The position numbers and the translations under genes were made by a program. A DNA stretch of 64,000 nucleotides from an uncultured Verrucomicrobiae bacterium (GTDB taxonomy: Bacteria > Verrucomicrobiota > Verrucomicrobiia > Limisphaerales > UBA1096): assembly GCA_937770485.1 (NCBI GenBank), contig CALJHX010000007.1, positions 62,001-126,000 on the forward strand, written 5' to 3'. Each line of letters opens with the position of its first letter. Positions within the stretch are counted from its first letter, which is position 1. The notes under the pieces are model-generated. The model did no database searches and was not told the DNA's origin. It was given only the letters and a program-made list of their open reading frames with translations. This document shows positions 1 to 61,114 of this stretch, piece after piece.

Positions 1-795
1 TGGCGCTGCCTGATGTGCGATCTCTGGCAAAACACCCTAGACGAAACCGTGCCCGACGGGGCCATCGCCGGGCAGATCGACTTCGCGCTTGGACAGGCAG
101 AACGCGAGTGCGGCGGCTTGGCCAAGCTGCGCAATGTCAAACTCTACAACGCTGGCAGTTTCTTCGATGTCAAAGCCATCCCAAAGGCAGAAGATGCCGC
201 GATCGCAAAGCGCTTGGCCAATTTTAACCGTGTCATTGTTGAGTGCCACCCGGCTTTGGTTGGGGATCGTTGCCTCCAATTTCGCGACCGACTTAGCGGC
301 CAACTCGAAGTGGCGCTTGGCCTCGAGACGGTTCATCCGGAGGCACTGCAAAAACTCAACAAGCGAGTGACTCTCGATCAGTTCCGCGCCGCCGCTGAGT
401 TAGTCACTCAAAATGGCATGGCCCTGCGCGCTTTTGTTTTACTTCAGCCGCCATTCATTCCTCCGGAAGAAGCCGTCGAGTGGGCCAATCGTTCCGTCGA
501 TTTTTCGCAGGATTGTGGCGCTAAAGTCACCTCGCTGATCCCCACCCGAACCGGCAATGGCGCGATGGATCGGCTCGCCACCGCTGGTCAATTCAAAGAG
601 CCTACGCTTGACCAGCTGGAGGACGCGATGGACTACGGAGTTGGCCAGGCTCGCGGGCGCGTCTTTGCAGACCTCTGGGATCTAGGCCGCTTCTCAAGCT
701 GCGAGACCTGTTTTCCCCAACGCAAGTCCCGCTTGGGCAAGCAGAATGACACCCAGCAAGTCCCCATCAGGATCACTTGCCCAAGCTGCCGTTGA
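1..795 (+). CDS. Radical SAM protein, RaSEA/MJ1487-like, N-terminus cut off by window edge
   Basis: The frame is open from base 1, and the first codons read W-R-C-L-M-C-D-L-W, so C-L-M-C supplies the last two cysteines of the radical SAM CxxxCxxC cluster motif; the first cysteine lies outside the window. The following KLYNAGSFFD, VECHPALVG, GLETVHPEALQKLNKR and IPTRTGNGAMDRL blocks match the family that includes the archaeal archaeosine enzyme RaSEA (TIGR01210 type). A second possible metal site is formed by CETC and CPSC at the C-terminus. About 264 residues are visible and roughly 80-100 are missing. Its bacterial substrate is not known to me; a modification role is only inferred from the family. 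A carbonic anhydrase-like gene follows after 36 bases. One copy of the dispersed GCTTGGCCAAGC palindrome lies in the reading frame at 116-127. Confidence 0.8.
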   Translation, partial: WRCLMCDLWQNTLDETVPDGAIAGQIDFALGQAERECGGLAKLRNVKLYNAGSFFDVKAIPKAEDAAIAKRLANFNRVIVECHPALVGDRCLQFRDRLSGQLEVALGLETVHPEALQKLNKRVTLDQFRAAAELVTQNGMALRAFVLLQPPFIPPEEAVEWANRSVDFSQDCGAKVTSLIPTRTGNGAMDRLATAGQFKEPTLDQLEDAMDYGVGQARGRVFADLWDLGRFSSCETCFPQRKSRLGKQNDTQQVPIRITCPSCR

Positions 796-831
796 CCGGG
801 CTTAGGTTGCAGTTTAGCTTGGCGTCTCGCT

Positions 832-1398
832 ATGGGATCGGATCATTCAGTAAATCAGAGACTTGAAAAATATCTGCGGTTGCATCCCTCGCTCGACGAG
901 GATGTGTATATTGCCAAGTCAGCGGTGGTGTTAGGCGCGGTGACCCTCGGGAAACAATCAAGTGTCTGGTACAACGCCGTTCTGCGAGGCGACATTAACG
1001 AGATCGTTGTCGGCGAAGGGTCGAATATCCAGGACAACGCAGTGCTTCACAACGCCGACGACTTTGGCTGTTACATCGGTGACTACGTGACCGTCGGCCA
1101 CTCGGCGGTTGTGCATGCGTGCCGCGTTGGTGACGAAACACTGGTGGGAATGGGTGCCACCATTCTCGACGGGGCGGTGGTTGGCAACCAATGCATCATC
1201 GGCGCGAATGCACTTGTGAAACAGGGACAAAAAATCCCTGATGGATCGATGGCGGTGGGCAGCCCGGCAAGAGTGATCCGTAAGCTCTCCGACGAAGACC
1301 GGGCCGGACTTAAAAGCTGGGCTACTAAGTACGTTGCCAACGCGGCATACTGCCTGAAGCACGGCATCAATGTAGGGGGACCGCTGCAGACTTCGTAG
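832..1398 (+). CDS. Gamma-class carbonic anhydrase family protein (left-handed beta-helix)
   Basis: A 188-residue protein with the hexapeptide-repeat pattern of the left-handed beta-helix fold, running from VYIAKSAVVLGAV to about residue 160, followed by a short C-terminal helix. The family hallmarks are visible: WYNAVLRGDIN, IGxGSNIQDNAVLH, VTVGHSAVVHACRVGD with spaced histidines that would bind the metal, GMGATILDGAVVG, and VGSPARVIRKL. Members are called gamma carbonic anhydrases (YrdA/PaaY type); many are trimeric and only some hydrate CO2, so the activity is not certain. The length is typical of the family. It sits between the radical SAM gene and apbE on the same strand with gaps under 40 bases, so a shared transcript is likely. 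Confidence 0.88.
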   Translation: MGSDHSVNQRLEKYLRLHPSLDEDVYIAKSAVVLGAVTLGKQSSVWYNAVLRGDINEIVVGEGSNIQDNAVLHNADDFGCYIGDYVTVGHSAVVHACRVGDETLVGMGATILDGAVVGNQCIIGANALVKQGQKIPDGSMAVGSPARVIRKLSDEDRAGLKSWATKYVANAAYCLKHGINVGGPLQTS

Positions 1399-1423
1399 CC
1401 CACATTGAGCTTTTGTTCCGTCG

Positions 1424-2374: not shown

Positions 2375-2406
2375 ATTTGCTTTGCGTCGGCTTGGGCCTC
2401 GCGCAA

Positions 2407-2435: not shown

Positions 2436-2436
2436 A

Positions 2437-4127: not shown

Positions 4128-5058
4128 AACAGTGGATTCTTTCTTTTATATCTTGGCCAGATCCTTCGTTTTCGTTGTCCAGTTGATGCCCTTAAAAGTG
4201 GTGGCGCTGACTGGCCGGGCAGGAGGGATTTTAATATATTATTTGGATGCGAGGCACCGCAGGGTCGCTGTGAATAACCTGTTGGCTTGTCTGGGTAATT
4301 CACATTCTAAAAAAGAAATTATTTCTCTCGCTAGAGAAAACTTTTGTCGTATCGGGGAAGTGTACCTTTCTGCGTTGAAGACGGCGGCCATCCCCGGAGA
4401 TAAAATTGGCTCTGTGCTCTCGGTCAAGGGTGCGGAGAACCTCCGCTTGGCCAAGCGGGAGGACGGTTCCCTCCCCAGTTTTTTGTTTGCTATCGGGCAC
4501 TTTGGAAATTTTGAGATGTACGCAAAAGCTGGGCTTTTCATTCCTGGTTATGAGCTTTCCACAACTTATCGGGGGTTCCAGCAGAAATGGTTGGAGCGCT
4601 TGATCTTGTCACTCAGAAATAAATCAGGAACCAAATTTTTTGACCGCCGATGGGAAGGGAGGAAACTTCGGTCGTTCATGAAAAGCCAGGGAACCATCAC
4701 TGGGCTGCTTGCAGATCAGAGCGCCGGTAGAAACGGCCTGAGGCTTTCTTTTTTAGGTCGCCCCTGCTCTGTCACTCCCTCCCCTGCAATACTTGCTCTG
4801 CGCTACAATCTGGGGCTGCACGGGTGCTTCTGTCGCCGGCTTGGCTTGGGTCGGTGGGAGATAGAGCTTTATCCTGAGATTCCAACTCGGCTAAATGGAC
4901 AAGCGCGTCCGGTTGAGAACATCATGTCCGACATCAATTCCCTGTATGAATCTTTCATCCTTGAGGATCCTGCAAACTGGTTCTGGGTGCATAATCGCTG
5001 GAAAAACCCAGATCGTGCGAAGAACAGAGGTATCACTTCGGATGCCTCAGAAACGTAA
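4081..5058 (+). CDS. Lipid A acyltransferase, LpxL/HtrB-type
   Basis: A 325-residue member of the lysophospholipid acyltransferase superfamily that adds secondary acyl chains to lipid A. One N-terminal hydrophobic segment (about residues 22-45) is followed by FAIGHFGNFEMYAK, which contains the HX4E catalytic motif. FFDRRWEGRKLRSFM, GLLADQSAGRNGLRLSFLG and the terminal ILEDPANWFWVHNRWK block are typical of the family. The longest reading starts with GTG at 4081 and overlaps lpxK by 47 bases. GTG 4132, just after the lpxK stop, would give 308 residues and is a reasonable alternative. Either arrangement implies coupling with lpxK. Which acyl position it serves cannot be told. Confidence 0.88.
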   Translation: MLRTFRSVSVKSASSKTVDSFFYILARSFVFVVQLMPLKVVALTGRAGGILIYYLDARHRRVAVNNLLACLGNSHSKKEIISLARENFCRIGEVYLSALKTAAIPGDKIGSVLSVKGAENLRLAKREDGSLPSFLFAIGHFGNFEMYAKAGLFIPGYELSTTYRGFQQKWLERLILSLRNKSGTKFFDRRWEGRKLRSFMKSQGTITGLLADQSAGRNGLRLSFLGRPCSVTPSPAILALRYNLGLHGCFCRRLGLGRWEIELYPEIPTRLNGQARPVENIMSDINSLYESFILEDPANWFWVHNRWKNPDRAKNRGITSDASET

Positions 5059-6401: not shown

Positions 6402-7538
6402 CTACCGATTGGCTTCAACGAAGTTAAGAAACGAAGATAAGACGAAATTGATTTCTTCCTCCGTTGTCTCTCGGCCAAGCGAGAAACGAACGAGTGAGTT
6501 GGCTTCATTATCGCTTTTTCCCATCGCGGAGAGGACATGTGAGGGGTTTAGTGAACCGGCAGAACAGGCAGAACCGGCAGAGGCACAAATTCCATCCAAA
6601 TCCAAGGCGGCGAGTTGGGTAATGCTGTCGATGCCTGGCACGGTGAAACTGGCTGTGTTGGCCAAGCGCTTGGCCAAGGGACAGAGTAGATTTATTCCAT
6701 CAATCTCACCCATTGAAGAAAGCCGGCTGTTCAACAACTCAAGTCTGCTTTTCTCGAAGACAGGCGTTGGAACAAATCTCTCGATGGCTTCCACCAGACC
6801 TGCGATTGAGGCCAAGTTTTCCGTGCCCGCCCTTCTATCATTCTCATGACCACCACCGAAGAGAATAGGATCCGGCAACAACGGAGACTTTATGAACAGA
6901 GCGCCACTTCCCTTTGGCCCGTAAAATTTATGCCCGCATATCGTAACCAAGTCGGCGTTAAACTGATGAATGCTTTCAAAAGGCTCCTTACCAAACCACT
7001 GCACAGCATCTGTGTGAAAAAGAACACCCCGCTGTTGGCAGATCTCCCCCAATTCGGCGACCGGTTGGATGGCACCAGTCTCATTATTGGCAGCCATCAC
7101 TGAAACTAAAATTGTGTCATCTTTAATAGCGTTATCTAAATCTTGTGGAGCCACTCTCCCCTCTGCATCAACCGGAAGTGTGGTTAGCTCGAAGCCTTCT
7201 TTATTCACAAGATATTCAACAGTGTTCAAAACCGCATGATGCTCAATTGCGGAGGTAATTAAATGCCTTCCTTTAGACTTCAAAAACCTTGCCGAACCAC
7301 ATATGGCCAGACAGACGCTTTCTGTGGCACCACTCGTAAAAACCACCTCACTCGCCCTGCACTTCCAAACCCGAGCGACCCTTTCTCGGCAGTCATCCAG
7401 TAGGGCGCGAACTTTCCGGCCAATTCGATGAATACTTGAGGGATTTCCAAAAAAGTCCCCTAAAAAAGGTAACATCACCTCCTTCACTTCGGGATCAAGG
7501 GGAGTGGTGGCATTGAAATCTAGATAAACCGTTCTCAC
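6402..7538 (-). CDS. Cysteine desulfurase (NifS/IscS family)
   Basis: A PLP enzyme that takes sulfur from cysteine for Fe-S clusters and tRNA thiolation. From a GTG start at 7538 it is 378 residues. The frame is open further upstream to 7736, but that part is low-complexity translation of AT-rich DNA and carries no family similarity; GGTAGGAAACAG just before the GTG can act as ribosome binding site. YLDFNATTPLDPEV, VFTSGATESVCLA, the AIEHHAVL and AANNETGAIQP blocks, HTDAVQW, and ICGHKFYGPKGSGALF with the PLP lysine are all present. SAGSACSAGSLNPSHVL holds the catalytic cysteine. Dispersed palindromes at 6658-6679 encode LAKRLA near residue 290. Confidence 0.95.
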   Translation of the reverse strand: MRTVYLDFNATTPLDPEVKEVMLPFLGDFFGNPSSIHRIGRKVRALLDDCRERVARVWKCRASEVVFTSGATESVCLAICGSARFLKSKGRHLITSAIEHHAVLNTVEYLVNKEGFELTTLPVDAEGRVAPQDLDNAIKDDTILVSVMAANNETGAIQPVAELGEICQQRGVLFHTDAVQWFGKEPFESIHQFNADLVTICGHKFYGPKGSGALFIKSPLLPDPILFGGGHENDRRAGTENLASIAGLVEAIERFVPTPVFEKSRLELLNSRLSSMGEIDGINLLCPLAKRLANTASFTVPGIDSITQLAALDLDGICASAGSACSAGSLNPSHVLSAMGKSDNEANSLVRFSLGRETTEEEINFVLSSFLNFVEANR

Positions 7539-8787: not shown

Positions 8788-10725
8788 CTATTCCTTCAGA
8801 TCGTCGAAATAGTCCCGCACCGAGTCACGATAAGCACGGGGCACCTTGTCCTGATTCAACGCATTGCGGGCATCCGATTGAGCGGCCGTCACCGCTTCCT
8901 GAAATTGCACTCTGCTGCTGCCCTTGATGCTCACCCCGCGCAGCGAGAAGCTCGGCATCGAGCCCTTAGGGTTTATCTTCCCTTTGATCCGAGTGGAAAC
9001 CATGTCGTCCGGCACTATGCTGGGACCGCGATCTGTGTTGCCTCGGGCATCCATGCCCGGCCGCGAGAAGCCAGAGTTGTCCCATTGCTGCGCCAAGTCC
9101 TCAGGCGTGAGTTGATAACTTTCATCCCCCCAAGTGCCGACTCCGCCGCCCGGTTTACTGCTTGGGCCAACGCCCGGTTTTTGGCAGGAGCCAAACGACT
9201 GACAGTTGCCCACGGCCAGTTGCGCCCGCTCTAGGTTTTGCAGCGCTGCCATCATATTTTCCATGTCGCCTAATTGCTGCAGCACCTTCTTCAATTCTTC
9301 CGCCGCTTCCGCCAGCGACTGCGACGCCCCCGCCTTGTCGCCCACTTTGGCTTTTCCTTTCGCATCGGAAAGGTATTTCGAGCACTCGCCGAAATCCTCC
9401 GCCGGGTCGAGAGCCTTCTGCAGTTCCTGAATCATCTTCTCGAGTTGCTCCGGTGTTAATTGAGCAGACGCCAACTGCTCAATCATTTTTTGCAGCGACT
9501 CGATTGCAGCCGGCACCTGGCCATTCTCAAGTTGTTGGCCCAGCGTTTTGCCAATCTTGGCCATCTGCATTTGCAGGTTTTGCATCGCCTTAGCCAAGTC
9601 CGCCATTTTCTTCAAATCCTCACCGGCAAAGTCCATATTCTTTAGTAATTGATCAATATTACTGGATTCCAGCGACTGCAACGCCTCGTCGATATTCGGC
9701 ATTTCCAGCCCTATTTGCTCGGCCATCCTGGCTAAGGCAGCCATCGATTGCGCCAACTCCTGACGCGCCTGTTGCCCTTCCGGTGAGCTGGCGTCCGGCA
9801 GTCCGGCGGCGGCGTCCTTGACGGCATCTATCTTCGACTTCAGCGCATCAAACTGCTCGTGCTTTGCCTCTTTTGCGTTGCCGAGACTTTTCTTTAATTC
9901 ATCCAGTTGCCGCTGCATCTCGGCTTTTGTTTGGCGGCCCGCACCCGGTGGGGTCCGCGCAGCTTGCTGCATTTTCTTGAGTGTGCGCGCATGGCCAAGC
10001 TTGCTGGATTGATCACGCAACCGTTCCGCCAAACTTGAGAGCATGGCCAAGGCTTCGTCTCGCACAAGTTTGCCCCTCTTAAACTCCCGCCCAAGTTCCT
10101 GCACCGACTCGAGCGCGTCCTCCGTCGGCTCAAAGTGCGGCGGGCTTAACTGGACTTGCAGCTTGGTCAGCGCCGTCAGGTTTTGGCCAACGTCCTCAAT
10201 GATGGCCGAGTCGCGTTGCTGGTCAAGATGCGCCTGACTGCGATGCTCGGGAACAAAACCAAGCCCGACGCAGGCGGCCAACACGAGCAAAGTCCAGTGG
10301 CAAACCTTGGGCAACCGCAGCGGCAAAAGTTTCCCCGGCTCAATCTTGCCTGCCGCCTTTGCAGCGTCGCTAATCACCAAAGCCGACCAAGCGGAGTTTT
10401 TTGCGGAGATGTCGGACATCTCCACCGCAGTGCTCAGGCGTTCTTTCAATCCAATTTCGCGGTCAAGCCAACGCGCGGTGTCGCTGCCGGCGAAGCGCTT
10501 GGCCAAGCCGATCAGCAAACCAGCCAACGGGAGAGCCAACCCAATGACGCCCGCCCAAAGCAGTGTTGTCTGTGGAACGGGAGCCAGTTTGTATACACTT
10601 AGGGAGGCAAGCCACAAACAAACGCCAATCAATAGCCCAAGCCACATGTTTTGCCAGCCCCATTGCAACTTGCGGCGTCTTGTAGCGGCGTCAATTTTCG
10701 CGTCAATGCCCCTTTTTTCACTCAT
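8788..10725 (-). CDS. Coiled-coil membrane protein encoded with MoxR
   Basis: A protein of about 645 residues whose best start is the ATG at 10725 (MSEKRG); an ATG 12 bases earlier is also in frame. Three hydrophobic segments are visible: roughly residues 25-45, 55-80 and 140-160. They are followed by a long helical, Gln/Lys/Glu/Leu-rich region (about 165-500) with heptad-like spacing, for example MAKIGKTLGQQLENGQ and LEKMIQELQKAL. A Gly/Pro-rich linker (PGVGPSSKPGGGVGTWG) and a short C-terminal domain end it. I do not recognise a named family. Similar large membrane proteins sit in MoxR clusters of Planctomycetes and Verrucomicrobia, so an envelope role with the downstream MoxR is inferred. 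Confidence 0.8.
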   Translation of the reverse strand: MSEKRGIDAKIDAATRRRKLQWGWQNMWLGLLIGVCLWLASLSVYKLAPVPQTTLLWAGVIGLALPLAGLLIGLAKRFAGSDTARWLDREIGLKERLSTAVEMSDISAKNSAWSALVISDAAKAAGKIEPGKLLPLRLPKVCHWTLLVLAACVGLGFVPEHRSQAHLDQQRDSAIIEDVGQNLTALTKLQVQLSPPHFEPTEDALESVQELGREFKRGKLVRDEALAMLSSLAERLRDQSSKLGHARTLKKMQQAARTPPGAGRQTKAEMQRQLDELKKSLGNAKEAKHEQFDALKSKIDAVKDAAAGLPDASSPEGQQARQELAQSMAALARMAEQIGLEMPNIDEALQSLESSNIDQLLKNMDFAGEDLKKMADLAKAMQNLQMQMAKIGKTLGQQLENGQVPAAIESLQKMIEQLASAQLTPEQLEKMIQELQKALDPAEDFGECSKYLSDAKGKAKVGDKAGASQSLAEAAEELKKVLQQLGDMENMMAALQNLERAQLAVGNCQSFGSCQKPGVGPSSKPGGGVGTWGDESYQLTPEDLAQQWDNSGFSRPGMDARGNTDRGPSIVPDDMVSTRIKGKINPKGSMPSFSLRGVSIKGSSRVQFQEAVTAAQSDARNALNQDKVPRAYRDSVRDYFDDLKE

Positions 10726-28408: not shown

Positions 28409-28452
28409 GCGTTGGGGACAGGGGCCCCTACCTTTTGCCCTTGGCCAAGCGA
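28409..28452. repeat. Partial copy of the palindrome-bordered MITE-like repeat
   Basis: This stretch, GGCGTTGGGGACAG then CCCCTACCTTTTGCCC and TTGGCCAAGCG, matches the right half of the element at 59074-59184 with a few changes, ending in the same dispersed palindrome. It lies in the non-coding leader of the prepilin-like gene. Confidence 0.55.
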
Positions 28453-44827: not shown

Positions 44828-44857
44828 AACCGGGCAGGTTTTCCTGCCCGGTTTTTT
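44828..44857 (+). terminator. Strong intrinsic terminator after rpsA
   Basis: AACCGGGCAGG (44828-44838) and CCTGCCCGGTT (44843-44853) form an 11-bp perfect stem with a TTTT loop, followed by T residues to 44857. A full copy of the dispersed palindrome (44868-44881) lies right after it. Confidence 0.93.
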
Positions 44858-44930
44858 GTTGGACAAGCGCTTGGCCAAGCGGTCGGCTCTCGACTTTCAG
44901 TGGCCAAGCGGCCATAATAAGCCACGTTTT

Positions 44931-46767: not shown

Positions 46768-46821
46768 CCGCAATTCCAGACTCGCCTTCGGGCGGTGTTG
46801 TTGGCAGAGTTTGCATTTCCA

Positions 46822-47877
46822 ATGTCCGCTGCAAAAAAAGCTCCCAAGCGATCCGGGATTCTGGCTGGTGGAAACTGGATCATCGATCAGGTGAAGATGA
46901 TCGATGTTTACCCCCAGCGAGAGCAATTGGCCAACATCACCGGGGCCACGGTCACCGGCACCGGCGGTTCGCCGTACAACCTGCTCATCAACCTGGCCAA
47001 GCTCGGCGCTGACATCCCGCTCGCCGCCGCCGGCCTGGTCGGCAAAGACGCTTTCGGCGACCTGATCCTTGCGGACTGCGCCAGCCACAAGATCGAGACC
47101 AAGCTCCTCAAGGCCACCGCCGATGCCCCGACCTCCTACACCGATGTCATGACCGAGACCAAGGGCGGCAACCGGACGTTTTTTCACAACCGCGGCGCCA
47201 ACGCGCTCTGGGGCGGCACCGATATCGACTTCAAAAAAACCAAGGCCCGTTTTTTTCACTTGGGCTACCTGCTCCTGCTCGACGAGATGGATAGCGCCGA
47301 CAAAAATCACGGCACCAAGGCGGCCAAGCTTCTAGCGGCCGCGCAGGCGGCCGGGCTGCGGACGAGCATCGACGCCGTGAGCGAGGACAGCGACCGCTTC
47401 GCCAAGATTGTCACGCCCGCACTGCAGTACACCGACTACTGCATCCTGAACGAAATCGAGGCCGGCAAGACGGCCGGCTTCAAGATACGGCAGGACGACG
47501 GCAAGCTGGACACCGTGGCGCTTCGGCACGCCGCCGGTGCGTTGTTGCAGATGGGCGTCGGCGAGCTTGTGGTGATTCACTTTCCGGAGGGCGGATTCGT
47601 GCGCACGCGAAAAGGTGAGGACGTGCTGCAATCCTCACTGCGAATCCCGGCAAAGGACATCGTTGGAGCGGCCGGGGCGGGGGATGCCTTCTGCACCGGC
47701 ATGCTGCTTGGCCTGCACGAGGAATGGGACTTGGCCAAGTGCCTCGAGACAGCGGTCTGCGCCGCCGCCGCCTGTCTCTCCGATCCGTCTTGCACCGGCG
47801 GCATGAAGTCGCTCCGAAGTGTGCAGGCACTGGCCAAAAAATATAAATTTCGCCCAAGGCTCGAGCCGGGGTTTTGA
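46822..47877 (+). CDS. PfkB-family carbohydrate kinase
   Basis: A 351-residue ribokinase-like sugar kinase starting at ATG 46822 (MSAAKKAPKR); an ATG 27 bases earlier is in frame but less likely. GGNWIIDQVKMIDVYP, GTGGSPYNLLINLAKLGA (sugar-binding), FHNRGANALWG, and the catalytic anion hole in VGAAGAGDAFCTGMLLGLH, with the Asp as general base, are all clear. The substrate is not fixed by sequence; ribokinase, adenosine kinase and fructokinase types are possible. It follows the NusG-like gene by about 55 bases and converges with efp. Confidence 0.88.
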   Translation: MSAAKKAPKRSGILAGGNWIIDQVKMIDVYPQREQLANITGATVTGTGGSPYNLLINLAKLGADIPLAAAGLVGKDAFGDLILADCASHKIETKLLKATADAPTSYTDVMTETKGGNRTFFHNRGANALWGGTDIDFKKTKARFFHLGYLLLLDEMDSADKNHGTKAAKLLAAAQAAGLRTSIDAVSEDSDRFAKIVTPALQYTDYCILNEIEAGKTAGFKIRQDDGKLDTVALRHAAGALLQMGVGELVVIHFPEGGFVRTRKGEDVLQSSLRIPAKDIVGAAGAGDAFCTGMLLGLHEEWDLAKCLETAVCAAAACLSDPSCTGGMKSLRSVQALAKKYKFRPRLEPGF

Positions 47878-47880: not shown

Positions 47881-47913
47881 AAAAAACGCTCCGCTTGGCC
47901 AAGCGGGGCGCTC
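47881..47913 (-). terminator. Terminator of efp built from the dispersed palindrome
   Basis: The bases 47887-47910, containing CCGCTTGGCCAAGCGG, are self-complementary over 12 pairs (one of them G-U), and on the reverse strand they are followed by a run of T from 47886 down through the mirrored A tract. This is an intrinsic terminator for the leftward EF-P gene whose stem is a full copy of the dispersed element. Confidence 0.75.
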
Positions 47914-49472: not shown

Positions 49473-49515
49473 GCGAGGAGCTTGGCCAAGCGCCGACCGT
49501 TTGTAAAGACGCCGA

Positions 49516-50607
49516 CTACGGCTTGGCTTGCTTGAGGCTGTACAGGTAGGTGACCATGTCCACCAATTCCTGCGGCGTCATCGTCGCCTGCAGGCCCTGC
49601 GGCATGATGCTGATCGGCAACTGCGTGCGCTTGGCGATGTCCGCCGTTTTGTAGGCGATGGAAATTCCGCCGGGCAACTTGAGCGTCAACTCGTCGTCGG
49701 TCTGGCTGGTGATGATGCCCAGCGCCTCGGCGCCGTTTTTCGTTTTCAACAGCCACGCCTCGTAGCCGAACGGGATGCCGGCGTTGGGGTCGAGGATGGA
49801 GAGCAGCAACGCCTCGCGGCCGAGCTTGGTGCCGATGCCGGAAAGTTTTGGGCCGAAGTCGATGCCCCTGCCGTTGACCTGGTGGCAGGTGGCACAGGTG
49901 CTTTGCGGACGAAAAAAAATCTTTTCGCCGTTGGCCATGTCGCCCTTCATCGCGACGAGCTTGGCCAAGGGGGGCAGCGCCTGGCCAAGCCCCTGCGGCG
50001 GCGGGAAGAGCTTGGTCGCCTGTTCGCGGAGGTTTTTCCAGCGGACGCCACGCAGTGCGTTGCCCGCGGCGAAGTTGAGATCGGCCGGGAGTCGCCCAGC
50101 CTTGGCCTCGGTCAAAAGTTCTTTTGCGCCGGTCTTGGCCTTGGCCAGCCCGTTGACGGCGATCGTGCGCAGAGCCAGCGGCTTTTTGGCGTCCCTGGCC
50201 AGGCGCAGCAACACCGGCCCGGCCTCGGGTGCCTGCGCGTTGGCCAGCGCGGCGACGGTGGCGGCGGCATGCTCCCCGTCGATGGCGGCGCGGATCAGCT
50301 TCAATCCGGCGTCGTTCAGCAACAGGCGGATCGCCTCGACGCCGGTCGAGTCGTTGGGATGCGCCTGCGCGTACCGGAGCAGCTCCGCCTCGTGGCCGCG
50401 CAGCTTGAAATCGCGGACGATCTCGACGAACGCCGCCTGGCCACGCGACGCCTCGAGGAGGTCGAGCACCACTTTTTTGATCGCCGGGTTGGCGTCGAGG
50501 TCGATGTCTTTGAGCCGCTTGAGCGCCTCAAGCTGGACGTTGACTTGTGCCGACAAATGAGGGGAGGCCAAGCCGATGGCCAGCACAATGAAAAACCGTT
50601 TCAGCAT
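49516..50607 (-). CDS. Secreted TIGR02603-type heme-binding protein with HEAT-like repeats
   Basis: A 363-residue protein with a short signal peptide (FFIVLAIGLASPHLSAQ). Helical HEAT-like repeats occupy about residues 25-215, then MANGEKIFFRPQSTCATCHQVNGRG carries a CxxCH heme c motif. The C-terminal GPKLSGIGTKLGREALLLSIL, LPGGISIAYKTADIAKRTQL and LVDMVTYLYSL match the putative heme-binding domain TIGR02603 of Planctomycetes and Verrucomicrobia. These are periplasmic proteins of unknown electron partner, often next to PQQ or glucose dehydrogenase-like genes, which are absent here. Its ATG lies 2 bases past the restored stop of folE2 (50609), so the two are translationally close. Confidence 0.88.
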   Translation of the reverse strand: MLKRFFIVLAIGLASPHLSAQVNVQLEALKRLKDIDLDANPAIKKVVLDLLEASRGQAAFVEIVRDFKLRGHEAELLRYAQAHPNDSTGVEAIRLLLNDAGLKLIRAAIDGEHAAATVAALANAQAPEAGPVLLRLARDAKKPLALRTIAVNGLAKAKTGAKELLTEAKAGRLPADLNFAAGNALRGVRWKNLREQATKLFPPPQGLGQALPPLAKLVAMKGDMANGEKIFFRPQSTCATCHQVNGRGIDFGPKLSGIGTKLGREALLLSILDPNAGIPFGYEAWLLKTKNGAEALGIITSQTDDELTLKLPGGISIAYKTADIAKRTQLPISIMPQGLQATMTPQELVDMVTYLYSLKQAKP

Positions 50608-51465: not shown

Positions 51466-52147
51466 CTACTCGCGCTTGGCCAAGCGCGGCTTCACGAGGG
51501 AAGTCCACAGCGCGTAGCCCTTGGCGTTGAGGTGTAGGCCATCGCCGAGGAACAGATCCGGCTTGGGCTTGCCGTCGCCGCCAAGCATCGGCTGCCAAAT
51601 GTCGATGTAATCGAGCCGCTTGCTCCTTGGCGCAGTCGCCGCGCACAAGCGCGTTGGCCTTGGCCATCTTCTCAGAGAGCTTCCAGCGGCTGAGGCTGGG
51701 CTTGATGGCGATGAACGAGATGCGCGCCTCGGGCAGCTTGGCGTGCACGGTCTTCACGAATTTCTGAAAATCAGCCAGCACCGTCTCCGGCGACTTGCCG
51801 GCGGCGACGTCGTTGTCTCCGGCGTAAAGGACGATCTGCCTGGGTTTGTACGGATGCAAGATGCGTCCGGCGAAGTGGGTCGAGTCGGCAATCTGCGAGC
51901 CGCCGAAGCCCCGGTTGATAACCGAAAAACCAGCGAAATCCTGTTTGAGTGTTTTCCACATCCGGATGCTCGAGCTGCCGATGAACAGGACACCGCCCGG
52001 CTCGGGCATCTGTTTTTTGTCAGCGGCCTCGAAACGGGCGATATACTTTTCCCACCGCGACGAGTCGTGATCCGCCGCAATAGCAGCGATCGGCAACATC
52101 CCACAGACAAGTGCCAGTCGGGCGATAGTTTTTTGAACCAAGGGCAT
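51466..52147 (-). CDS. Secreted SGNH/GDSL hydrolase, apparent frameshift near the C-terminus
   Basis: From ATG 52147 a signal peptide (TIARLALVCGMLPIAAIAA) leads into VLFIGSSSIRMWKTLKQDF (nucleophile Ser of block I), VINRGFGGSQIADSTHF (block II Gly), IVLYAGDNDVAAGKSPE (block III Asn). The frame breaks near AKEQAARL (about 51625-51632); the expected end DYIDIWQPMLGGDGKPKPD and LGDGLHLNAKGYALW, with the Asp-x-x-His block V, continues in another frame to a stop at 51466. Read together they give a typical lipase/acetylesterase-like protein of about 226 residues. The 18-bp palindrome CGCGCTTGGCCAAGCGCG (51471-51488) encodes its last residues, RLAKRE. Confidence 0.82.
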
Positions 52148-52235
52148 GCGAGGACTCTCAGGCAACGCTTCCCGCTTGGGAAGAAAAAACGGTTTAAGCT
52201 TCAATCCGTTGCTCACTTGGCCAAGACTTTTGCCG

Positions 52236-53087
52236 ATGCTGGAAGCGCTCAAGCCGGACGATTACCTGCCGCTGGTCAAGGCCGCCCTGGCCGAGGACAT
52301 CGGCAGCGGCGACGCGACCACCCTGGCCCTGGTGCCCGGGGACTCGTTCGCGATGGCGGTGATGGTCGCCCGCGATCCGCTGGTCATGGCCGGGGTCGAT
52401 CTCGCCCTGGCCGCGTTTCAGGAGGTTGATGAACGCGTCGAGTTTGGCATCGAGATTTTCGACGGCCAACTCGGCGGGCTTGGCCAAGCGTTGCTGCGCG
52501 TGCAGGGGCCGACCCGAGCATTGCTCACGGCGGAGCGAACCGCCCTCAATTTCGTCCAGCGCCTGGCCGGCGTGGCCACACTCACGGCGCAGTTCGTCGA
52601 GCAGGTCGCCGGCACTGGGGCGCAGATTCTCGACACACGAAAGACGACTCCCGGCTGGCGCTCGCTGGAGAAATACGCCGTGGCCTGCGGCGGCGGCACG
52701 AATCACCGGGTTGGGCTTTACGACCGGGTGATGATCAAGGACAACCATCTCGCCGCACTCGATGGCGACATCGCCAAGGCAGTGGCGCTGGCACGCGAGG
52801 CGTCGCCCGAATTGAAAATTGAGGTCGAGGCAGACACGGTCGAGCAGGCCCGGGCGGCGGCGGAAGCCGGCGCGGACATCGTCCTGCTTGACAACATGAG
52901 CTGCGACCAAATCCGCGAAGCCATCGAGCTGATTGATGGCCGTTCCGAGACCGAGGCCAGCGGCGGCGTGACGCTGGAGACGGTCCGCGAAATCGCCGGG
53001 ACGGGAGTGAACTTTATCTCGGTCGGCGCGCTGACCCACTCCGCGCCGTCGGTCGATATCGCGCTCGACTTCGACCAGATCGCCTGA
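52236..53087 (+). CDS. nadC: Nicotinate-nucleotide pyrophosphorylase (quinolinate phosphoribosyltransferase)
   Basis: A 283-residue NadC, which turns quinolinate into nicotinate mononucleotide. ATG 52236 is the natural start; an upstream open stretch overlaps the divergent SGNH gene. ALAEDIGSGDATTLALVPG, TALNFVQRLAGVATLTAQFV, ILDTRKTTPGWRSLEKYAVACGGG (Lys/Arg substrate ligands), HRVGLYDRVMIKDNHLA and VEADTVEQARAAAEAGADIVLLDNM are the expected blocks, and the C-terminal SVGALTHSAPSVDIALDF completes the barrel. nadA and nadB are not nearby. A dispersed palindrome (52478-52489) encodes GLGQALLR near residue 86. Confidence 0.94.
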   Translation: MLEALKPDDYLPLVKAALAEDIGSGDATTLALVPGDSFAMAVMVARDPLVMAGVDLALAAFQEVDERVEFGIEIFDGQLGGLGQALLRVQGPTRALLTAERTALNFVQRLAGVATLTAQFVEQVAGTGAQILDTRKTTPGWRSLEKYAVACGGGTNHRVGLYDRVMIKDNHLAALDGDIAKAVALAREASPELKIEVEADTVEQARAAAEAGADIVLLDNMSCDQIREAIELIDGRSETEASGGVTLETVREIAGTGVNFISVGALTHSAPSVDIALDFDQIA

Positions 53088-53093: not shown

Positions 53094-53783
53094 CTACTTC
53101 TGCGCTAGCTTGGCCAAGGCGGCCGAGGCGGCCTGCGACTCGGCTTCCTTTTTGCTGCTGCCGGTGCCGCGTCCCAGTTCTTTTCCTGCTTGAAGGACGG
53201 CGACCTCGAACTCCCGGGCGTGAGCCGGGCCGGAAGTGCTGAGCAGCTCGTACGTCGGCGATACGCCGGTGATGCCCTGGAAATATTCCTGCAACTCGCC
53301 CTTGGGATTTTCGATTACGGCGATGCTGTCCGGGTTGGCGAGTTCATCCTCAAAAACCCGCCGGACAAAGTCACTCGCAGCGTCCAGCCCGCCGTCGAGA
53401 TACAGCGCGGCGACCAGCGCTTCAAAGACATCCTCCAGCGCGGAGTCCTTCCCCCGGTCAAAGTCGGATTGCTGGCCCCGGCCCAGGACGAGGTACTGCC
53501 CGAGGCCAAGCGCATCGGCCTTGGCCGCCAGCGACGTGCCGTTGACCAACCTGGCGCGGGCCTTGGTCAGGTGGCCTTCGTCCTTTTCGGGATGAAGCCG
53601 GTAAAGCGCCTCGGAGATCACCGCCTGCAAAATAGCGTCGCCGAGAAATTCCATCCGCTGGTTGTCATCGGACGGCTTCGATTGGTTGCCGGACGCCGAG
53701 GGATGCGTGATGGCAAGCTGCAACAGGCTCACGTCACGAAACTCGTGACCGAGCGTCTGCTGTATTGCCTGCAAGTCAGCCAC
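53094..53783 (-). CDS. rnc: Ribonuclease III
   Basis: A 229-residue RNase III that cuts double-stranded RNA in rRNA and mRNA processing. The catalytic domain shows FRDVSLLQLAITHPSA, DNQRMEFLGDAILQAVISEAL (signature with the first Glu/Asp), and a second metal-binding region in DSALEDVFEALVAALYLDGG. The C-terminal dsRBD includes PKGELQEYFQGITG, and KELGRGTGSSKKEAESQAASAAL. Everything required is intact and the length is normal. The zinc-finger-like gene ends only 9 bases upstream, so the two share a transcript. It converges with nadC, 6 bases apart. Confidence 0.95.
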   Translation of the reverse strand: MADLQAIQQTLGHEFRDVSLLQLAITHPSASGNQSKPSDDNQRMEFLGDAILQAVISEALYRLHPEKDEGHLTKARARLVNGTSLAAKADALGLGQYLVLGRGQQSDFDRGKDSALEDVFEALVAALYLDGGLDAASDFVRRVFEDELANPDSIAVIENPKGELQEYFQGITGVSPTYELLSTSGPAHAREFEVAVLQAGKELGRGTGSSKKEAESQAASAALAKLAQK

Positions 53784-54427: not shown

Positions 54428-54443
54428 GCGCTTGGCCAAGCGC
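54428..54443. repeat. Intergenic full-length copy of the dispersed palindrome
   Basis: GCGCTTGGCCAAGCGC is a perfect 16-bp palindrome in the 80-base gap between the LpoB-like gene and the zinc-ribbon gene, preceded by a T run (54422-54427). Read on the reverse strand, the hairpin is followed by an A run, not T, so its use as a leftward terminator is unclear. Confidence 0.7.
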
Positions 54444-54448
54444 CTGGC

Positions 54449-55081: not shown

Positions 55082-56398
55082 TTATTTTAGCCGAAATTGC
55101 TGAATCTTCAAGGGCGCTCCCGGCGCGAAGCTCTTGACACAGACCACGTTCACGCGGCCGGTATTCACCGTCACCTCGCTTTTTTGCGGGCCAACGAGCA
55201 GCGCCAGCTTGCGGTCGCCCGGCGTCTCGACACGGCAAACACGGAACTCCTTTGGCAGCGTGGTCCACGTGCGGAGATCGGCCTGCGCGCCAGCGGCTTG
55301 GTACAAAAAACCGGCGATGGCACCGAGATCGCCGGCTTCCTCCCGGGCTTTTTTTGCCACGGCCGCCTTGGCGGCGGAGGCGGCCAGCGTGCGGAAAATC
55401 ACCGCCGGCAGCCCGGTGCGAAAGTCACGGGCGACCACGACGTCCATGTCGCAGATCAGCGTGGCCTCGCGCTTGGTCCCGCCGATGGCAACGTGCGCGT
55501 GAGTGGAGCGACCCCGGCGCTCGAGCCGGGGGAACGCCGCCGCGACGTACGGCACGTTTTTGTCGTACAACGGCACGTCGAGCCGAACCTCGCGGCGGAT
55601 CGGCGCCACGCCGGTCTCGAAGATGACGTACGTCAGGTCGGGATGCTTCGCGCCGCCGAGGATGCGGTCGACCATCCCGATCTCGTCGGCGAGAAACCCC
55701 GGCCCGCCCAGCGTCGAGTGAATGCGCCGGAGCGAGACGAGCGCATTCTCCCGGCCGTCGGCCGCAAGGCTCCACAGGCAGAGCGCGTGCAGAAAGTCGG
55801 TGAACGGGTTGACGAACGCGCCGTAGTCCAGCGCGATGTCCGGCTGAAGCTCGTCGAGCTTCGCGCCGCGGATGGCCCGCTCGAATTCCCCGGCGGACTT
55901 GCGGGCGGCGACGATGCGGCGGGCGTTGCGGACGACTTCGGCATCCTGCTCGGCGTGCGCCTGGCGCAGCTCGACGAGCGCGGTCTCCGCTTGGCCAAGC
56001 TGCAAATAATTCAGCGCTTGGTACGTGTTGAGCATCACCCGATCGTAGCCGCGCCCCTCGTACGGCAATGCGGCCAGGTTGGTCAGCAGTCCGGTGGCCT
56101 CCCTCGATAGCCGCAACTTGGCCTGCCGGTCGTAAAACGCGATCCGCTTTTCCGCCTGCTCGAACGCGTGGTTGCTGGCCGCGAACTGGCCGGCGGCCCG
56201 GAGCGCCGCGCCCTGCTCGAGAAACCACACCACGGCATCCCGCGAGTCGCTGTGTTTGCCGGCCTCCCGGCTGGCGATCTGCGCGGCTTGGCCGGTGCTG
56301 CCGCCGTTCCACGCCCCGCGAAACGACCCGGTCTGGCTCTCGTAACTGGCACACCCGGTCAGCAGCAGCACAAAACCCAAATGACAACCCCAACGCAT
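55082..56398 (-). CDS. COG3014-like lipoprotein, partner of LpoB
   Basis: From ATG 56398 the protein is 438 residues with a lipoprotein signal (CHLGFVLLLTGCASYESQ). TPR-like helices follow (AGQFAASNHAFEQAEKRI, GYDRVMLNTYQALNYLQLGQ), and the middle and C-terminus (VNPFTDFLHALCLWSLA, LPAVIFRTLAASAAKAAVAKK, DLRTWTTLPKEFRVCRV) match the uncharacterised COG3014 family. In other genomes this gene sits with LpoB and YcfL-type genes, suggesting an envelope or cell-wall synthesis role. GC is high and two dispersed palindrome copies are in or just outside the gene (55989-56000, 56414-56427). Confidence 0.8.
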   Translation of the reverse strand: MRWGCHLGFVLLLTGCASYESQTGSFRGAWNGGSTGQAAQIASREAGKHSDSRDAVVWFLEQGAALRAAGQFAASNHAFEQAEKRIAFYDRQAKLRLSREATGLLTNLAALPYEGRGYDRVMLNTYQALNYLQLGQAETALVELRQAHAEQDAEVVRNARRIVAARKSAGEFERAIRGAKLDELQPDIALDYGAFVNPFTDFLHALCLWSLAADGRENALVSLRRIHSTLGGPGFLADEIGMVDRILGGAKHPDLTYVIFETGVAPIRREVRLDVPLYDKNVPYVAAAFPRLERRGRSTHAHVAIGGTKREATLICDMDVVVARDFRTGLPAVIFRTLAASAAKAAVAKKAREEAGDLGAIAGFLYQAAGAQADLRTWTTLPKEFRVCRVETPGDRKLALLVGPQKSEVTVNTGRVNVVCVKSFAPGAPLKIQQFRLK

Positions 56399-56416
56399 CG
56401 GCAGCAACGTTAACGC

Positions 56417-56472
56417 TTGGCCAAGCGCAAGCCAACGCCGGAGCGGCGGCGGTGTGGCAGGTTTTGGGCGGT
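56417..56472. repeat. Left copy of a direct repeat shared with the hsp70 upstream region
   Basis: Bases 56417-56450 are identical to 59173-59206 (34 bases), and 56454-56472 are identical to 59238-59256 (19 bases); the left copy lacks about 30 internal bases. Both begin with the dispersed palindrome. The repeats frame a 2.7-kb segment. Confidence 0.8.
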
Positions 56473-56520
56473 TGTTATTGTCCGCAGCGCTTGGCCAAGC
56501 TCTATTCAGAACTGAACCAT

Positions 56521-56829: not shown

Positions 56830-58330
56830 TCATTTGTTGGGTACTTAGTCGATCCTGAAAAAGTCGTTTTTCAGTTGAGTGACCTAGGGTAAAAGGCAGT
56901 GTTCGGATTGAAAATGATGTGAAGTTGGATTTCTGCCGGGTTGAGCATCCACCGAATGTAGAGCCAAGTCTTCCCCGCTTGTCTGAGCAACTTCCTGAAG
57001 TTCATTCCCGCTGCACTTAGCACTGCGTTGAGTTGATCTCCTTGGGTTCCTTTAAGTCGGTTGCGATTCATCCGATGCCCGTGTTTCAGGTGGCTGATTC
57101 CTGGTTCCACCACGGCTCGTCTTTTCATCCACTTCCACAGCCGCTTGGGTGTCTTGCCTTTGCGCTGTTTGTCTACGTGCACATCCATCTCCCCCTCGTA
57201 CCCGTGCCCTCTGTAGCCCCTGTCCACAAACACTTGTTTCACTTTTTCCCCCACCATCCGCCTCACTTGCTCCAGTGTCTCTTTGAGCGTGTGCCCATCA
57301 TATGGATTGCCCGGGTGCGCCTGCGCTGCCACGTGCCACCCTCCACGACTGCTCGTCCCCACGCTCACTTTCACCCCAAACTCATAGCGCTTGTGCGCTT
57401 TACCTTTGCTGATGCATTCCACCTCCGGCGCATGCACGCTGTACACTTTGCCTTTGTCTTTCCTCTGTTGATCGTAAATCCTCTGCGCTTGCTTTAACTC
57501 TTCCTTCAGCTTGGGATCCGGCTCCGGGCATTTTCTTTGAATATCCCGTATCACTCGACCCAACAAGGTCTTGAGATGCCTCCCGCATTTGCCCGCTCTC
57601 TTGTACTGTCTGGCATGGGCGTAGCGGCTTTGCTTGAGCATTAATCGCTTCCCCACCCGCTCGTAACTCTGCCTCAGTTTGAGCCTGCGCCGCTTGGCCA
57701 AGCTCACCAACACCGTTCTGGCTCGATCGTAGAGTCTGCTGTCCGTTGGAAACCTCACGTGCTTCTCCTGCACCGTCGTGTCCACGTTGATCCTCTCCAG
57801 TTGCCGAGGCTGGATCAGTTTCATCCTCAACCCTGCCTTGATCGTCTCCTCCAATAGCTTCTCTGCTCCCACTTTGGCCAAGCGCGTACGCCATCTACTC
57901 AGGCTCGAGGCCTCGATCGGCGCTTGGTGCTCGAAGAACTTCATCCCGCTTAAATGCTGCCAGTACGGGTTCTCCACCCACAACTCCAGCACCCCCTCAT
58001 CACTCAGGTCGTAGACGTACTTGAGATAATTCAACGACACCAGCAATCTTGTGCTTACTCCGGGGCGCCCCAACTCCGGATGCCAGGTTTGTTCCAGTGC
58101 CGTTTCAAACGCTTCCCAATCCATCCCAGCGGCCACTTTTACCATCGGGTGCTTGGGGTTCACCATCCGCGAGAGTTCGGTCCGGAAGAAATCGGCCTGA
58201 TAACCCGATGTGAGCTCTTGTTGTGGTTTCATCTGCCTCTCTACTTTGCAAGGTTTTGACCCCAACGGAAAGCTTTCCTTGCAATTTGAGACACCTCTTT
58301 CCCCCTCCTCGCCCCTGTCTTTGTTAACTC
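56830..58330 (-). mobile_element. IS5-type insertion sequence (ends not precisely defined)
   Basis: A single-transposase element lies between the winged-helix gene and a membrane gene that probably once formed one operon. Near the two ends, GTTGAGTGAC (56873-56882) and the reverse complement of GTTAACTCAATC (around 58324-58335) could be imperfect inverted repeats, but the match is weak and no target duplication was found. The boundaries are therefore approximate. Confidence 0.6.
56871..58232 (-). CDS. IS5/IS1182-like DDE transposase
   Basis: A 453-residue transposase from ATG 58232 (MKPQQELTSGY); an ATG at 58265 would add 11 residues. The DUF772-like N-terminus (TRLLVSLNYLKYVYDLSDEG, WVENPYWQHLSGMKFFEH, SSLSRWRTRLAKVGAEKL) precedes the DDE domain. 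The first Asp is in INVDTTVQEKHVRFPTDSRL, the second in VFVDRGYRGHGY, and the Glu in AVVEPGISHLKHGHRMNRN, so the catalytic triad is complete and the gene is full length. Two dispersed palindromes (57692-57703, about 57874-57883) are in the reading frame. The element may still be active. Confidence 0.93.
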   Translation of the reverse strand: MKPQQELTSGYQADFFRTELSRMVNPKHPMVKVAAGMDWEAFETALEQTWHPELGRPGVSTRLLVSLNYLKYVYDLSDEGVLELWVENPYWQHLSGMKFFEHQAPIEASSLSRWRTRLAKVGAEKLLEETIKAGLRMKLIQPRQLERINVDTTVQEKHVRFPTDSRLYDRARTVLVSLAKRRRLKLRQSYERVGKRLMLKQSRYAHARQYKRAGKCGRHLKTLLGRVIRDIQRKCPEPDPKLKEELKQAQRIYDQQRKDKGKVYSVHAPEVECISKGKAHKRYEFGVKVSVGTSSRGGWHVAAQAHPGNPYDGHTLKETLEQVRRMVGEKVKQVFVDRGYRGHGYEGEMDVHVDKQRKGKTPKRLWKWMKRRAVVEPGISHLKHGHRMNRNRLKGTQGDQLNAVLSAAGMNFRKLLRQAGKTWLYIRWMLNPAEIQLHIIFNPNTAFYPRSLN

Positions 58331-58822: not shown

Positions 58823-58843
58823 GATTTGTGTATTTCTATGTTA

Positions 58844-58915
58844 ATTTCCAAAATGGCAAGTAAATTAGCAATCACTTTCCATAATGGAAAGCTTTAACTT
58901 TCTAATATGGAAAGT
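58844..58915 (-). promoter_or_regulatory. Three operator-like inverted repeats upstream of the membrane gene
   Basis: CTTTCCATAATGGAAAG (58875-58891) is a perfect 17-bp palindrome. ACTTTCTAATATGGAAAGT (58897-58915) is a near copy centred 23 bases away, and TTTCCAAAATGGCAAG (58845-58860) a weaker copy centred 31 bases on the other side. All lie 22-93 bases before the ATG at 58822, where a repressor of the winged-helix type would bind. Confidence 0.65.
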
Positions 58916-59073
58916 AACTGCAGCCGACAACCAAAAAAGCCCCAAACCCTATTTTTCGCAAAAACTGCTATAATTTCCCTCTGACACCAAACTGGGAAGG
59001 GGTACTGAAAGTGGGCGGTTCTTGTTATTGACAAGTAACGCCATCGAACAGCAAGGCCTTGGTGCGGTGAACC

Positions 59074-59184
59074 GCTTGGCCAAGCCCGCGGTAGGGATGG
59101 CTGTCCCAGCTGTCCGCCAACGAGCCCAATGCAACCCGGCGCGCTGGGGACAGCACGCCCTACCTTCCCCTTTTGGCCAAGCGC
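59074..59184. repeat. MITE-like element bordered by dispersed palindromes
   Basis: About 110 bases run from GCTTGGCCAAGC (59074-59085) to TTTGGCCAAGCG (59173-59184). Inside, GTAGGGATGGCTGTCCCA (59091-59108) is an imperfect inverted copy of TGGGGACAGCACGCCCTAC (59145-59163). A partial copy of the right half lies at 28409-28452. No protein is encoded. Confidence 0.65.
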
Positions 59185-59256
59185 AAGCCAACGCCGGAGC
59201 GGCGGCGGGTGAATTGGCGTGCCGGGGCGGTGGCGGCGTGGCAGGTTTTGGGCGGT
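59173..59256. repeat. Right copy of the direct repeat flanking the 56.4-59.2 kb segment
   Basis: Positions 59173-59206 and 59238-59256 match 56417-56450 and 56454-56472 exactly. The copy overlaps the right end of the MITE-like element and runs up to the GTG start of the hsp70 gene. Confidence 0.78.
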
Positions 59257-61114
59257 GGGTAAGATTATTGGTATTGACCTTGGCACGACCAACTCGCTGG
59301 TGGCGATTGTGGAGTCCGGCATTCCGCTGGTGCTGGCGGACGGCCAGGGGCGGCGGCTGACGCCGTCGGTGGTGCGCGTCTCGGCGGACGGCGAACCGGT
59401 GGTCGGCTGGGAGGCCAAGCGCGGGCGGGTGGCGCACCCGGAGACGACGGTCACGTCCATCAAGCGGTTCATGGGACGCCGGGGCGACGAGGTGGATTCA
59501 ACCGCCGCCGCGTCGGTGTACGCCATTCGCGCCGAGGGCAGCGGGCCGGTGGCGGTGCCGCTGCACGGTCGCGACTGGTCGCCGGAGGAGTTGTCCGCCG
59601 AGATTCTCAAGGCGCTCCGGACGATTGCTGCCGAGGGGATGATCGACCGGCCCGAGGCGGCGGTGATCACGGTGCCGGCCTATTTCAACGACGCCCAGCG
59701 CAACGCCACGCGCAATGCCGGCGAGTTGGCCGGGTTGCGGGTTGAGCGCATCATCAACGAGCCGACCGCCGCCGCGCTGGCCTACGGTCTGGGCTCGCTG
59801 AAGGAAAAATCGAAAGTAGCCGTGTACGATTTCGGCGGCGGGACGTTCGACCTCTCGATTCTCGAGTTGAACGAGGGCGTGTTTCAAGTGCTGGCCACCT
59901 GCGGCAACACGCAGCTGGGCGGCGACGACATCGACCGCGTGATGATCGAGCATTTGGCCGAGAAGATTGGCCAAGCGGGCGGGCCAAGCGCCGCCACTGA
60001 CCCCGCGATTTGGGCGCGGTTGGCCGAGGCAGCGGAGGAGGCCAAGGCGCGGTTGTCCACGGAAAACGAGATTGCCATCGCGCTACCGTTTTTAGCGCCG
60101 GAGTTTAGTTTTGAATACACGCTGACGCGCGAACAGCTCGAGCGCTTGGCCAAGCCGATCGTGGTGCGCACGCGCGAGTATTGCCTCAAGGCGCTCGCCG
60201 ACGCCGGCTTGGCCAGTGGCGATCTCGATCAAGTGATCCTCGTTGGCGGACAGACGCGGATGCCGCTCGTGCGTGAGTTTGCCTCAGAGGTGTTCGGGTG
60301 CGGCGACAGTGGGCCGGAGTTGAACACGTCGCAGAATCCTGACGATGCAATCGCGATGGGCGCGGCGATTCAGGCGGGGATTTTGTCCGGCGACTACAGC
60401 GGCATGCTGTTGCTCGATGTGACGCCGCTCTCGCTGGGCATCGAGACGTTCGGCGGGTTGATGAACGTGATCATCCCACGCAACACGACGATCCCAGTGA
60501 AGCGCGGCGAGGCGTTCACGACGGTGGCCGACTACCAAAAGGAGGTGCTCATCCACGTGCTGCAGGGTGAGCGTGAAAAGGCGGCGGACAACTGGAGCCT
60601 GGGGCGGTTCACGCTGGAGTCCGAGCCGCAGCCCAAGGGCGTGGCCAAGGTGGGCGTGCAGTTCGAGATCGACGCCGACGGCATTTTGCATGTGCTCGCG
60701 CGAGACATCAAAACCGGCAACGAGAAGGTCGTCGAGATGGCTTCCGCCGTGGAGGTCGATGACGCCGAGGTGCAGCAAATGATCGAGGAATCGGTAGAGC
60801 ACGCGTTCGACGACATCGAGGAACGGCGCTGGATCGAGGCCAAGCTGCGCGCCGAGCAGACGAAGGCCGCCACTCGCAAGGGGCTGGAGTCGCTCGGCGG
60901 CGAGTTGGCAGATGATCAGCGCGGGGCGATCGAGTCGGCGCTGGCTGCGGTGGAGTCGCTGTTGGCCAAGCGGGGGCGGGACGAAGCGGTGACGGCTGCC
61001 GAGCTGAAGGAAGCCAACGGCAATCTCGACGACGCCACCCAGCCGTTGGCGGAGTTGATGATGGACCGCGTGATGGCGGAGATGCTCGAGAAACGCGGCG
61101 TGTTGCCGGGTTAG
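59255..61114 (+). CDS. Hsp70-family chaperone (DnaK/HscA-like)
   Basis: A 619-residue Hsp70 from GTG 59255 ([14 protein letters not shown]); the longer frame from 59219 translates the repeat. The ATPase domain shows [77 protein letters not shown] and the adenosine motif [13 protein letters not shown]. The substrate domain begins [17 protein letters not shown] and ends near residue 500, with a helical lid behind. DnaJ and GrpE are not adjacent, and the sequence is less like housekeeping DnaK (no disordered EEVK-type tail), so a specialised Hsp70 or HscA-like role is possible. It overlaps infC tail-to-tail by 4 bases. Confidence 0.92.

Follow-up and report, generated by a model that had tools for sequence, protein, structure and literature searches.

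What keeps one 12-bp palindrome, GCTTGGCCAAGC, repeated through the genes and gaps of an uncultured Verrucomicrobiae bacterium (order Limisphaerales, UBA1096)? The question was raised by a stretch of 64,000 nucleotides, hereafter the window (GenBank assembly GCA_937770485.1, contig CALJHX010000007.1, positions 62,001–126,000), in which the palindrome occurs 17 times and not once in 100 dinucleotide shuffles. An earlier note, made from the letters of the window, had recognized the iterated palindrome correctly and had put its number of full copies slightly too high, at about 18. The 10-bp core CTTGGCCAAG is present 31 times, 17 of them inside full 12-mers (shuffles: mean 0.18, maximum 2), and the shorter forms TTGGCCAA and TGGCCA are present 50 and 112 times. 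The excess that the note had described holds genome-wide. The genome from which the window was taken (G000; 3.30 Mb, 83% complete, 46 contigs) contains 585 copies of GCTTGGCCAAGC and none of the reversed control, compared with an expectation of ∼1.5 from a third-order Markov model (counts from 463 kb of G000, scaled to 3.30 Mb) and of 48 from a fifth-order model that already contains much of the motif.

The sites follow a consensus of ∼16 bp, SCGCTTGGCCAAGCGS, with the profile SCGCTTGG|CCAAGCGS (463 kb of G000), in which information declines outward from the central GGCC. The motif is a perfect palindrome with two-fold symmetry. Relative to the 10-mer, and with an expectation from base composition only, sequences with 0, 1, 2 and 3 mismatches are enriched 297-, 14-, 2.7- and 1.5-fold in 503 kb of G000, where 164 exact copies are observed and 0.6 are expected. 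PMC1939737 reports a gradual mismatch profile of this kind for uptake sequences and for other oligomers under drive. The half-site GCGCTTGG followed by CC is found 141 times against 4.6 expected (∼31-fold), whereas any other following dinucleotide gives an enrichment of at most ∼5-fold (TT, 12 against 2.6 expected). In the three motif-rich relatives examined in this respect (G003, G008 and G017), the top palindromic 8-mer is also TTGGCCAA. Its spacing in G000 is irregular and clustered (coefficient of variation (CV) 1.41, n = 219); individual 20-kb stretches contain between 0 and 18 sites. Some sites in the motif-rich genomes sampled overlap in tandem at a period of 12 bp (11 spacings of 12, orthologous pairs retained). 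Another palindrome, TTCCACGTGGAA, was also observed in the window, with two copies (4 counted over both strands) and ∼0.008 expected.

Simple ORF calls over the same 463 kb (374 kb coding, 89 kb noncoding) placed 124 of 150 sites within called genes, at densities of 33 per 100 kb in coding DNA (124 sites) and 29 per 100 kb in noncoding DNA (26 sites). All reading frames are used, as the note had stated, and the coding sites are translated as LAK (77), LGQ (33) or WPS (14). After synonymous codons had been shuffled, the 10-mer was present 8.0 times on average (maximum 16 in 40 shuffles), compared with the 124 copies observed. Site density depends strongly on gene GC content: genes below 50% GC (76 kb) contain 3 sites, or 3.9 per 100 kb, and genes with at least 60% GC (126 kb) contain 73, or 58 per 100 kb. 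This rise is steeper than composition alone would lead us to expect, and it would fit a bias of the coding sites toward the core genome. One 20-kb stretch with a GC content of 0.443 (L040; G000:C4:1-20000) has a single motif site and carries very long ORFs (2322 and 1473 aa).

Among the genomes searched, abundance of the palindrome is confined to one genus. The relatives searched comprised 146 genomes, of which 21 drafts, G000 included, belong to the genus (completeness 61–93%) and 125 to other families of the order. Both the rest of the G000 genome and its sister genomes are rich in the motif; 17 of the 21 genus members are motif-rich, with 114–511 copies/Mb, and no motif-rich genome was found outside the genus. 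Neither of the two results that the note had named as refuting it was obtained. The 125 genomes of other families carry 0–13 copies (reversed control, 0–8), and a phylum sample of 387 genomes (385 additional ones, together with G000 and one already-examined genome) showed at most 7 copies outside G000, with at most 7 for the control. A 23-base double-site pattern matched at least 118 stretches in a species-level genome collection, and the 80 listed are all titled Verrucomicrobia; from isolate names among these listed matches (e.g. ARS81, Arabian9, ETNP1 and MED711) the carriers are probably marine. A 14-mer scan gave at least 120 stretches with one site apiece in the 80 listed and was hence little informative, and viral_contigs contained no double-site stretches.

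The four motif-poor members of the genus are G020 (45 copies/Mb), G005 (5), G019 (4) and G001 (2). The trees cover 18 or 19 genomes of the 21 in the genus, G012 and G016 being absent, and contain some weak deep nodes; the outgroups were 13 genomes that represent 12 other families. In these trees G001, G005 and G019 form a low-GC clade whose sister group is motif-rich G003/G004/G010/G015, and the sister group of G020 is motif-rich G008/G013/G018. Because the motif-poor genomes thus occupy two separate positions, the motif was, by parsimony, most likely present in the ancestor of the genus and then lost twice. TTGGCCAA is still above expectation in motif-poor genomes (G020, 56 versus 8.2; G019, 38 versus 9.5; G005, 16 versus 6.5). 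Sites of motif-rich genomes are not retained in the low-GC clade, where 10-bp identity at aligned sites is at 0/17 from G000 (control 5/331) and 1/59 from the sister group of the clade (control 10/519). No strong replacement palindrome was detected in the 60–120 kb searched per motif-poor genome, the best being TCTATAGA in G005 (8 versus 1.2 expected, both strands). The purity of the sites rises with their density (Spearman 0.85 for the 17 motif-rich genomes and 0.92 for all 21), and a denser genome with purer sites is reported for Neisseria lactamica in PMC2397512. Correlation of density with GC among the 17 motif-rich genomes is not significant (0.40, p = 0.11). Stretches sampled from members of the genus range in GC content from 0.40 up to 0.62, and the low-GC clade is one in which the motif was lost.

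Conservation was analyzed between G000 and six relatives at 76–82% identity, with 10-mers centred on GGCC that have at least three mismatches to the motif as controls. Identity over the full 10 bp was found in 61 of 98 site comparisons (controls, 217 of 1309), and GGCC was kept in 84 of 98 (controls, 659 of 1309). Pooled identity is 0.928 in the sites, 0.804 at 1–3 bp from them, 0.732 at 4–10 bp and 0.77–0.78 at 11–150 bp, with an overall value of 0.795. Where the amino acid is conserved, codons within sites are unchanged in 178 of 197 comparisons; the behavior of these codons outside the sites would predict 127.2. The sites are therefore held at the DNA level, with excess synonymous conservation. 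An identity peak at sites in permissive DNA is reported in PMC2397512 for the DNA uptake sequences (DUS) of Neisseriaceae and the uptake signal sequences (USS) of Pasteurellaceae. In relatives the sites align intact or degenerate in place, with at most two gapped sites per genome and direction; they originate by substitution and not by insertion, as is stated for USS in PMC1626085. In a polarised test, in which sites were counted if at least two outgroups carried them, ancestral sites were retained above control in G000 (19/33; control 27%), G017 (9/14; 39%), G011 (12/28; 29%) and G006 (12/30; 26%). An apparent faster-than-neutral loss of sites in G011, G014 and G006 through hits at the central GGCC was gone after outgroup polarisation and was taken as ascertainment bias.

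The genes of the competence machinery are distributed unevenly between the two groups of drafts. DprA was detected in 12 of 17 motif-rich and none of four motif-poor drafts (Fisher p = 0.021), and ComEC and/or DprA in 13 of 17 and none of four (Fisher p = 0.012). Domain scans confirmed that one ComEC (G008) and one DprA (G000) are full proteins. For comparison with the patchy ComEC, a long match to S1 was present in 18 of the 21 drafts. The association between competence genes and motif, which rests on two phylogenetic events and on drafts, is suggestive only.

Because of this distribution and of conservation like that of uptake sequences, our leading explanation is that the motif acts as a DNA-uptake (self-recognition) signal. 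It is unproven, and we favor it tentatively, at less than an even chance. The genus-wide signal of ∼16 bp would accumulate by point substitution and then be held by selection or molecular drive. Palindrome-bearing DNA would be favored for uptake or recombination by a competence machinery that includes ComEC and DprA, motif-bearing alleles would thereby be copied preferentially into the population, and the motif would decay once competence is lost. We infer the uptake machinery as reader, the symmetric binding and the drive through transformation. The more specific proposal, a palindromic uptake signal in a Verrucomicrobiota genus that is read by a symmetric receptor and was lost twice along with the competence genes, is doubtful. 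To our knowledge, such an uptake signal would be the first outside Neisseriaceae and Pasteurellaceae-type bacteria.

Several observations weigh against an uptake signal. Taken alone, ComEC is not significantly associated with the motif (9/17 versus 0/4, Fisher p = 0.10), and it was not found in motif-rich G000 (83% complete), G006 (88%) and G009 (86%). The absence of ComEC and DprA from the motif-poor genomes rests on drafts that are 67–77% complete and on two independent losses only, and the three low-GC motif-poor genomes may simply be reduced. Within the 17 motif-rich genomes, density is independent of the detection of either gene (p = 0.30–0.48), and G014, which has both, yet retains ancestral sites at the control level (6/28; 21% versus 20%). 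No receptor was identified, one site lies inside a transposase gene, and the known uptake sequences are non-palindromic according to PMC1939737. An intracellular dimeric protein would account at least as well for two of the features, namely the perfect symmetry and the even distribution of sites between coding and noncoding DNA. Finally, 11 recombinant-like tracts in five genomes are not enriched in sites, with 2 sites in 6.15 kb compared with 69 in 156.5 kb, although this is a small sample.

One of the recombinant-like tracts is located in the window, at 36101–36650. Here, G000 is ∼5% divergent from G007 and 11–15% divergent from three aligned sisters, in which the site is doubly mutated. The tract is likely the result of interspecies homologous recombination, with one motif site (a 10-bp core at 36313–36322) inside it. 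Recombinant tracts were considered as a source of sites and rejected: the case at 36313 is striking, but there is no overall enrichment.

The strongest competitor of the uptake signal is a binding site for a hypothetical dimeric, genus-specific chromosome protein with a role in nucleoid organisation, segregation, recombination or repair. Sites would be kept by selection for occupancy and would decay in the two lineages in which the protein was lost. This alternative, which takes in the segregation or repair mark considered in the note, is possible, but we regard it as rather unlikely. The two-fold symmetry and the graded consensus of 12–16 bp look like the site of a homodimer, the half-site is strongly enriched mainly where the palindrome continues, coding and noncoding densities are similar and conservation acts on the DNA level. 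The clustered, irregular spacing described above, with stretches of 20 kb that contain no site at all, and the near absence of sites from low-GC genes are less easily reconciled with such a protein.

A target of DNA modification like HIP1, which would accumulate through methylation-linked repair as in Elhai's model, is improbable, and the methylation target proposed in the earlier note found no support in the searches. Among the 21 genus drafts, PF00145 was matched in one, PF01555 and PF02086 in none, and PF02384 in three, marginally (E about 4e-4), one of the three being motif-poor; families such as PF07669 and non-methyl modifications were outside the search. The PF02384 match in G000, which has the N-terminal domain of PrmC, proved to be this protein and no DNA methyltransferase. 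The searches themselves work, as between 4 and 13 of the 14 control genomes gave matches to the four families. While absence from one draft means little, absence across 21 does count, and the four methyltransferase families are almost absent in the genus. According to PMC4390886, a GGCC enzyme of Anabaena belongs to PF02086. The same paper describes features of HIP1 that are shared by our motif and speak for modification: a palindrome with GC, the use of all frames, frequent one-off variants and the loss of the motif in some lineages. A conserved motif for which the usual DNA-methylating enzymes were almost never found suggests a signal for species recognition or chromosome binding. Among the four families, the only clear match comes from G008 (L407:358-1899), a C5 enzyme whose N-terminal part is a helix-turn-helix (HTH) domain.

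The note had also proposed a self-spreading palindrome, i.e. a miniature mobile element or insertion. The high copy number and the overlapping tandem sites are in line with this possibility. Insertion is, however, rejected because relatives have degenerate versions in place that align to the sites with few gaps, and we consider it very improbable. Least probable of all, and practically negligible, is a side effect of composition or of the use of codons or amino acids, for which the preference for frame LAK (77/124) and the increase of density with GC inside the genome could be cited, but which is refuted by the synonymous shuffles (8.0 versus 124), codon identity (178/197 versus 127.2) and composition (0.6 versus 164).

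Within the window, full 12-mers are read in frame LAK at 116–127, 4445–4456 and 10497–10508. A PNP_UDP_1 (phosphorylase superfamily) gene contains two full 12-mers, the first at 23353–23364 in frame WPS and the second at 23404–23415. The tyrS, nadC-type QRPTase and HSP70 genes carry sites, as the note had reported, and their identities are confirmed by Pfam. In the tyrS ORF (44856–46211) a full 12-mer is located in the leader or N-terminus (44869–44880, residue 5 of the ORF call); the nadC-type gene (52146–53087) has a 10-bp core at 52216–52225 and a full 12-mer in frame LGQ at 52478–52489; and the HSP70 gene (59219–61114) has a full 12-mer at 60144–60155. The supposed cysteine desulfurase at 26056–27039, with a core at 26856–26865, proved to be a PALP-fold enzyme, which we read as being of the cysteine-synthase type. 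Further cores are found in a PSD-domain gene (38179–38188 and 38524–38533), a HEAT-repeat gene (41188–41197) and a PfkB-family gene (46795–47877; core at 47730–47739), at 31478–31487 in frame LGQ and 31845–31854 in frame WPS, at 6669–6678, 25198–25207, 28440–28449 and 49960–49969, and in the intergenic segment at 53109–53118. The remaining full 12-mers are located at 51474–51485, at 55989–56000 (frame LGQ), in intergenic DNA at 47893–47904, 49480–49491 (where the core is kept in 8 of 11 other genomes aligned there), 54430–54441, 56415–56426, 56489–56500 and 59074–59085, and at 57692–57703 inside a transposase ORF (DUF772 and DDE_Tnp_1, 56871–58265). This ORF has its own full copy, and two more copies are found beside it within 500 bp. 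At 28594–28690 the window also contains a repeat of ∼90 bp that has many copies, ∼76–88% identical. Of 18 genomes of the genus that were searched, at least 16 contain this repeat, G000 among them, and k-mers that occur frequently, for example ACACGGCGGCAAGACG and ATTCACATCCGCACC, may be part of it.

In line with the note, the motif appears to be undescribed for Verrucomicrobiota: among the papers listed in the literature searches none appears to describe it, those listed that contain its string seem to have these letters for unrelated reasons, and no paper was found that links Verrucomicrobia with both natural transformation and DNA uptake sequences. The force behind HIP1 is still debated, and the model published in PMC4390886 requires a methyltransferase. 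Similar statistics in a genus in which the four methyltransferase families are almost absent separate the notion of a highly iterated palindrome from that of a methylation target. The genus offers a natural series from 2 to 511 copies/Mb with two inferred losses, in which uptake is testable between motif-rich and motif-poor sister species. If the motif is indeed an uptake signal, it would imply species-specific DNA exchange in uncultured bacteria and a third route, beside HIP1 and DUS, to a genome overwritten with one word, and it could serve as a marker that assigns contigs to the genus.

When the motif is compared with known systems, it shares with HIP1 of cyanobacteria (GCGATCGC) and its alternates the high iteration, the frequent one-off variants and a clade-wide occurrence, with some members in which the palindrome is scarce or lacking. 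The resemblance to HIP1 that was first noted thus stands for the statistics and for the spread through genes and gaps; it does not extend to the core, which is neither GCGATCGC nor a HIP derivative, nor to a matching methyltransferase, of which there is none among the four families tested, and the motif differs further in its phylum and in its longer, graded consensus. Chi-type sites are likewise short oligomers over-represented genome-wide, but Chi is asymmetric and strand-biased, whereas our motif is a perfect palindrome. With repetitive extragenic palindromic (REP) sequences, REPINs and miniature palindromic elements (MITEs) it has in common the palindromic form and the many copies. However, there is no sign of insertion or of empty sites, and 124 of 150 sites lie in called genes, whereas REPs are mostly intergenic. 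Like DUS and USS, the motif occurs about once per 0.8–3.4 kb (10-mer, 17 motif-rich genomes), is strongly over-represented with a gradual mismatch profile, originates by substitution, and shows conserved sites in permissive flanks and a purity that follows density; that no competence gene was found in the drafts that lost the motif is suggestive of the same likeness. Unlike DUS and USS, it is palindromic, belongs to Verrucomicrobiota and is not enriched in recombinant tracts, and its role in uptake is a proposed one. In much, namely substitution origin, conservation peak, link between density and purity, and lack of competence genes in the motif-poor drafts, it seems to resemble uptake sequences more than HIP1. 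In summary, the highly iterated palindrome is a kind of element already known, and the motif of this genus is neither HIP1 nor a proven DUS.

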